A DNA stretch of 64,000 nt, from NCBI GenBank assembly GCA_023255955.1, contig JAGDWD010000004.1, positions 1 through 64,000 of the forward strand, in the 5' to 3' direction. The position numbers and the translations under genes are program-made. The notes under the pieces are model-generated. The model did not search any database. It was not told the DNA's origin and was given only the letters and a program-made list of their open reading frames with translations. The DNA is from Desulfurococcales archaeon. Its GTDB lineage: Archaea > Thermoproteota > Thermoprotei_A > Sulfolobales > NBVN01. Every line of letters begins with the position of its first letter. Within the stretch, counting starts at the first letter, position 1. Below are positions 43,720-44,310 of this stretch, one piece after another.

Positions 43720-43980
43720 AGGGTGTTACACCACATAACTTTACCATGAAAGAACATTTAAATTTACTCTAAGTAAGTAACGGCAAGGTGTTCCAAAACT
43801 TTAAGTCCTTAACCACCCTTACGTGCTAGGATAGGTCCTCCAGCAAGGGACTCCTACCTCAACTAACCTTCCTCAACCTCGGTTGAAGTATCCTCTCCCC
43901 TAGAACTAACGATGCGAGTTAGGACATGCTCGGTGAGCTTTTATAGAATAGAGATGAAATATCCCTACTAGTAGGCCTGA

Positions 43981-44190
43981 CCTCCTCCCCGCCCTAAAGA
44001 GTGGGGGTTCCTGCTAGTGCGGGGAGGTTTGGGGCTACATCCCCGGGTTCAGCCCCGGGCCGGGTCTCCGGCCCTTTACCCCTATCCCGTGCGGGACGGG
44101 GTTATGGGTACGGCACACCGAGAACATCTAGAGTATTCAAAGCTTATAAACCCTTCATCCCCGCCCTGAAGGGCGAGGCTTTCAGTTGTA
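43981..44190 (+). mobile_element. IS200/IS605-type remnant with structured, omega-RNA-like sequence
   Basis: About 200 bp of GC-rich sequence in an AT-richer gap is packed with hairpins. CCTCCCCGC (43984-43992) pairs with GCGGGGAGG (44019-44027). GGGCCGG-GTCT-CCGGCCC spans 44057-44074. CCCG-TG-CGGG nests inside CCCC/GGGG near 44079-44100. CCCCGCCCT occurs in the same direction at both ends (43987 and 44159), the right copy forming GCCC-TGAA-GGGC. Hairpins of this kind, ending in GGGCGAGGCTTTCAG, resemble the right ends of archaeal IS605 elements, which also encode TnpB omega RNA. No tnpA or tnpB is next to it, so it is a remnant, a non-autonomous copy, or a free-standing RNA. Confidence 0.5.
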
Positions 44191-44310
44191 ACGTTATCTA
44201 TGAAATTTTCAGTACGTTAAGGAATGGTTTGCTGTGTCTATAAGTTTCCAGCTATTATCAATTATCTACAGTGGGAAAGCCCAGACACTTTATAACCGAG
44301 CTCCTCTGGT

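Follow-up and report, generated by a model that had tools for sequence, protein, structure and literature searches.

A gene-less 211-bp IS200/IS605 element of a Desulfurococcales archaeon with a predicted omega-RNA scaffold between its transposon ends

Is the hairpin-rich gap at positions 43981-44190 of the window (the whole stretch of 64,000 nucleotides analysed here) a non-autonomous transposon mobilised in trans, or an RNA kept for a function of its own? The original prediction left both options open, and its description of the locus held in most points. The hairpin-rich character was borne out, the DNA fold being better than that of dinucleotide shuffles (z -2.28), as was the RNA fold of the minus-strand right-end part (z -2.93, 3 of 200 shuffles as good). 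Neither tnpA nor tnpB is present as a gene, and the gap contains only the last 37 tnpB codons. The predicted parts do lie in this place, but on the minus strand and with exact limits at 43977-44187, followed by a TTAC target at 44188-44191; the gap had been called AT-rich, whereas the element itself is GC-rich. Both copies of the repeat CCCCGCCCT were also found (43987-43995 and 44159-44167), but they are parts of the right- and left-end palindromes and not a terminal direct repeat; this 9-mer occurs four times in the window against 0.65 expected. The resulting 211-bp element reads on the minus strand from AACTGAAAG to GGTCAG, is inserted 3' of TTAC and closes with TCAG. Its parts, all on the minus strand, are as follows.

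44188-44191, minus strand: TTAC target and expected TAM beside the left end (GTAA on the plus strand)
43977-44187, minus strand: whole gene-less, PATE-like IS200/IS605 element of 211 bp, with ends common to complete tnpA+tnpB copies and to a second gene-less ("solo") copy
44159-44177, minus strand: left-end palindrome CTCGCCCTTCAGGGCGGGG, expected TnpA-binding hairpin, conserved among left ends of both complete and solo copies
44143-44150, minus strand: TATA-box-like TTTATAAG in the left end, a motif also found in complete copies
43977-44117, minus strand: right end, predicted omega-RNA scaffold of about 140 nt (141 nt), from an nhmmer model of right ends and conserved helices
43997-44107, minus strand: remnant of the last 37 tnpB codons, without start codon, with an 81% amino-acid match to TnpB residues 381-417
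44078-44102, minus strand: helix 1 (ACCCC/GGGGT) with nested helix 2 (TCCC/GGGA), from the pairing analysis of solo right ends
44057-44074, minus strand: helix 3 (GGGCCGG/CCGGCCC), with two-sided changes, for example GC to CG
44031-44056, minus strand: helix 4 (GGGGCT/AGCCCC), with two-sided changes in four of six pairs
43984-44027, minus strand: closing helix (CCTCCCC/GGGGAGG), helices 5 and 6 of the pairing analysis (84.5% and 98.3%)
43977-43980, minus strand: TCAG right-end cleavage site, which closes nearly all right ends found
43957-43976, minus strand: flank that would supply the guide (GCCTACTAGTAGGGATATTT), by analogy with the build of TnpB reRNA (PMC8612924)

The element is thus a left end of about 75 bp, with its palindrome and the TATA-like TTTATAAG, fused to the tnpB remnant of 37 codons and the right end. 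Far from being a single copy unlike any IS605 end, it matched 15 places, complete IS605 elements included, when its copies were counted and compared with the ends of tnpB elements as the original prediction had proposed. In its own genome (G000; 1.64 Mb in 13 contigs), complete tnpA+tnpB elements with the same ends lie at C9:6600-8374 (1775 bp) and C12:353071-354847 (1777 bp), and the right end of the window element is 92-93% identical to those of the complete copies. A third copy is probably split over two contigs: C5 terminates in a left end followed by tnpA and the greater part of tnpB, and C4 terminates in a right end, the two pieces presumably representing one element. Since both contigs (L020, L018) break inside an IS605 copy, they may be chromosomal neighbours. 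The second solo copy, at C5:104356-104571, is 99% identical over 216 bases and has unrelated flanks. TTAC precedes the left end in the two G000 solos, in three complete or cut copies and in most relatives. These common ends, with their TTAC target and TCAG, and the near-identical copy in other flanks support the proposed non-autonomous IS605 element.

Several further variants of these ends were observed. The two G000 solos differ mainly in the left-end palindrome, the tip of which is CCTTCAGG in one and CCTGAAGG in the other (window 44159-44177; L019:1858-1896) and looks as if inverted between them. A decayed composite of about 150 bp (L021; G000:C1:79693-79850) combines a left end, a scaffold and an extra hairpin. 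On plasmids of several haloarchaea, 31 left-end bases are matched with 100% identity at sites without annotated genes (plasmid matches H7-H11).

The complete copies reveal the proteins on which such an element could depend. Their TnpA carries a Y1_Tnp domain (1e-39), with the transposase of PDB 2ec2 as its best solved relative (6e-60), and their TnpB carries OrfB_IS605 and Cas12f1-like_TNB domains. Elements with the same ends thus contain a Y1 TnpA together with TnpB, which identifies an IS200/IS605 source, and open tnpA reading frames exist in the same genome. At the canonical RuvC-II position, TnpB has a glycine instead of the glutamate (IKVGYPKYI versus IQMEDLTNI), and the D of DIG and the D of NAD are kept in the group. 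We considered a nuclease-dead TnpB on account of this glycine and set it aside, because the TnpB alignment contains an invariant glutamate seven residues ahead of the first zinc-finger cysteine (NEAHTSQTC, DESYTSTTC). Fanzors and part of the TnpBs are known to have their glutamate in such an alternative place, the "alternative E" layout (PMC10711439), and the nuclease is therefore probably active.

The mode of insertion could be read from a much shorter relative. In another genome of the family, a 39-bp single-hairpin mini-element (L064:1528-1566; G005:C18) interrupts a tnpB gene. Cutting it out exactly leaves ATATCATTTGAA/GTAAGCGAG (also written ATATCATTTGAA/GTAAGCGAGAAG), with 0 duplicated bases, and restores the frame as ISFEVSEKA, as in intact TnpBs; the mini was therefore inserted 3' of TTAC without target duplication. 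Similarly, TTAC stands on one side only in the G000 solos. IS608, too, targets TTAC (PMC8612924), so an insertion on the 3' side of a tetranucleotide, with no duplication, is in line with the family's known mode. Pattern searches found 17 minis in six genomes of the family; these may be mobile in themselves or collapsed forms of longer elements. A second insert in the same interrupted tnpB (L064:1025-1307) looks unrelated and brings hairpins and a TATA-like box of its own. For the 211-bp insertion itself, no empty site was found in Zestosphaera tikiterensis (Zestosphaera being a member of Desulfurococcales) or other relatives, in which the intergenic region is not alignable; the predicted empty site would read ..AACGTTAC/GCCTACTAGTAGG..

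With 211 bp, the element is too short to encode a transposase, its near-terminal palindromes are akin to IS605 ends and not arranged as terminal inverted repeats, and both the empty site of the mini and the one-sided TTAC of the solos speak for insertion without duplication. The element is thus very probably a PATE with mobilisation in trans, and TnpA of the complete copies is the most likely protein to move it. A MITE was rejected, as there is neither a terminal inverted repeat (AACTGAAAG.. against ..GGTCAG) nor a duplication.

Related gene-less elements are numerous. Solos with a right-end scaffold total 32 in four genomes: two in G000 (215 bp including TTAC), and 30, at 30 different sites, in three related genomes, namely 16 in G005 (249-270 bp), nine in G030 (mostly 329-342 bp, one of 180 bp) and five in G027 (211-223 bp). 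All 32 differ in their downstream flank. Both the G005 and the G030 family have middle segments that occur in solos only and are absent from the complete elements examined; each family therefore appears to stem from one gene-less ancestor. Against the 16 solos of G005, a single tnpB of the element's type was found in this genome, which is 82% complete, and this copy is broken by insertions. A search with the exact left-end sequence TTACAAYYGAAAG returned 66 sites: five complete elements, 21 solos with a complete scaffold, eight whose scaffold is partial or of another type, 22 minis with a single hairpin, one cut element and nine left ends without recognised partner, two or three of which resemble, by eye, solos with another scaffold. 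Since 22 of the 66 left ends lead only to scaffold-free minis of about 39 bp, the scaffold is not required for presence in a genome.

Two other classes of solos were also noticed. In G030, elements with the left end and middle of the 337-bp solos (L122, L123, L217, L220, L222, L223, L231) carry another right-end scaffold, which mostly ends in AGAGGGTCAT and resembles the right end found with a different TnpB type (L088). In a third class, the left end is of the same kind and the scaffold behind it is HgcC-like (L083, L139, L208 and L210 in G005; L191 in G315).

To what extent, then, is the right end conserved as an RNA? A 29-pair structure was evaluated in the right ends of 30 solos: standard pairs occupy 94.0% of its cells, compared with 88.1% in shuffles and at most 62.6% when the partner is slid. 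Two-sided changes amount to 65 against 17.6 in shuffles (0 of 500 as high); the cells are counted per sequence rather than per independent event, and different parents may have contributed some of the divergence. Right ends located behind tnpB display the same pairing pattern as the solos. The 3' arm of the closing helix doubles as an arm of the right-end DNA palindrome, and helix 5 is lost in the G030 solos; hence, not every gene-less family can form the standard scaffold. At the other end, a TATA motif lies at element positions 25-75 in 25 of the 32 solos versus 12% in shuffles. In complete copies this motif is expected to drive tnpA, and in solos the RNA.

Collectively, the right end and the 3' end of tnpB form a scaffold with conserved structure, as in an omega-RNA, and this conserved pairing together with the TATA box gives the element the appearance of a full omega-RNA gene flanked by transposon ends. 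The RNA half of the original guess is likewise strengthened, in the form of a predicted omega-RNA scaffold whose pairing persists across related gene-less elements through changes on both sides. Since the element lacks tnpB, its RNA could act only with TnpB made elsewhere. From the sequence evidence, we consider it moderately likely that the RNA is a working guide RNA used by TnpB in trans. For the presumed guide flank 43957-43976, the genome contains no second target at up to three mismatches, only its own site.

Comparison with catalogued RNAs extends this reading. Rfam yields 0 matches within the window at gathering scores, but the element's minus strand matches two whole models below these scores: HgcC (RF00062; 32.2 bits, E 7e-6, cut-off 50 bits) and sot0042 (RF02656; 22.8 bits, cut-off 88 bits). 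The HgcC consensus itself includes an IS605 right end, a GGCGGGGAGGAGGUCAG-like motif with GGGAGGAGGUCAG (written agggCGggGAGGAGGUCAG in the consensus). Among 299 Thermoproteota genomes, the HgcC model gave 14 matches in seven genomes (E up to 1e-8), all 14 of which terminate at the IS605 right-end motif. Eight are located directly behind tnpB reading frames (L188, L189, L192-L196, L198; the placement of L192 was judged by reading the sequence), five others lack a tnpB in the stretch preceding them, and L197 is a remnant of a right end. The gathering score is exceeded by L188 and L195. Both of them, and L189 also, overlap the end of frames with a Cas12f1-like_TNB domain. In G287, related right ends behind tnpB score 53.5 and 51.3 bits. 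Methanocaldococcus jannaschii, used as a control, was matched by the model and is the genome over the cut-off at the stricter E-value, and the first 50 kb of its large plasmid contain no match. HgcC was described as a free, functionally unresolved non-coding RNA in a 2017 genome paper (PMC5732400). As its best Thermoproteota matches are IS605 right ends, 8 of 14 directly behind tnpB, a function class can be suggested: HgcC is most likely an IS200/IS605 omega-RNA.

These observations can be combined in the following model. An IS200/IS605 element has lost tnpA and nearly all of tnpB and keeps two sets of features: the left- and right-end palindromes and the TTAC and TCAG cleavage sites for mobilisation, and the left-end TATA box, the complete right-end scaffold and a guide from the flank for the guide RNA. 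Acting in trans, TnpA of complete copies would excise and insert single strands of the element. Transcripts begun at the left-end promoter would run through the scaffold into the flank, so that the next 16-20 bases outside serve as the guide. TnpB from complete copies could then bind the solo RNA and cut the empty TTAC donor site after excision, and repair from the sister copy would restore the element there. Extended to the gene-less IS605 elements of these archaea, with at least three scaffold types and with HgcC as one of the omega-RNAs, the model would make them lasting families of guide-RNA-only transposons, each a promoter and scaffold between ends recognisable by TnpA, that use outside TnpA and TnpB, a generalisation towards which we lean slightly.

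Conservation of the right end might also be explained at the DNA level, the element being a pure parasite of TnpA that retains its right end as single-stranded hairpins and whose RNA has no role. Palindromes at both ends are indeed DNA structures used by Y1 transposases, and single-hairpin elements are common (22 of 66 left ends). However, these short relatives occupy many sites without any hundred-base scaffold, whereas a scaffold of about 140 nt persists in the long solos, where two-sided changes affect helices remote from the terminal hairpin, and these solos have a TATA box as well; we therefore regard the DNA-only explanation as possible but rather unlikely. It is much less probable that the element is an inert relic, a deletion derivative that is no longer mobile or active. 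Such derivatives are frequent in IS605 families (PMC3119063), yet the two 99% identical copies lie in unrelated flanks, both exactly 3' of TTAC, and lineage-specific families of up to 16 solos occupy differing sites.

A host RNA gene with its own regulatory function, only incidentally descended from an IS605 end, would agree with the cataloguing of HgcC and sot0042 as cellular non-coding RNAs (PMC5732400). It has very little probability in our view, as the copies, each in a different flank, hold no conserved position, and the equivalent intergenic region in Zestosphaera tikiterensis contains no alignable copy. Returning to the guide-RNA reading, if TnpB serves solo RNAs in trans, a gene-less transposon would borrow the nuclease of another element to guard its own donor site, and the selfish logic of TnpB could be tested with 200-bp constructs.

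Elements of similar organization are known as palindrome-associated transposable elements, or PATEs. Those of Haloquadratum walsbyi have IS605 ends, originate by core deletion and include a 52-bp terminal-only form (PMC3119063), similar to the 39-bp minis seen here. A 271-nt PATE-like element of Halanaerobium hydrogeniformans retains the hairpin of the left end, the final 58 nt of tnpB and a full right end (PMC7290912), the same three parts as the present element. In a haloarchaeon infected by a virus, strong transcription was seen at one end of a PATE (PMC10544981). Known PATEs and the window element share the absence of genes, terminal inverted repeats and target duplication, as well as near-terminal palindromes and IS605 ends; the latter differs in its lineage (Thermoproteota), its sequence and its TTAC/TCAG target. 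Among complete elements outside the genome, comparison was made with the ISDka2 region of Hyperthermophilic Archaeal Virus 2 (GU722197), whose right end is 81% identical and has the same end motif; unlike ISDka2 and the IS200/IS605 elements of its own genome, the window element lacks tnpA and tnpB. A virus (L235) thus carries this related element in complete form. The predicted RNA resembles the TnpB reRNAs or omega-RNAs (PMC8612924, PMC10278001; archaeal SisTnpB1, PMC10640517) in its length of about 140 nt, its composition of the tnpB 3' end and the right end, a guide taken from the flank and a TAM expected to equal the left-end target. Compared with the PATE literature, the omega-RNA scaffold and the TATA box have been tested here across families. 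Studies of Geobacillus IS605 elements (Meers et al. 2023) and of stand-alone IscB omega-RNAs (Altae-Tran et al. 2021) reportedly may already discuss RNA-only elements. The PATE kind is already known, and what is added here is the test of a guide-RNA scaffold across gene-less families and the link to HgcC.
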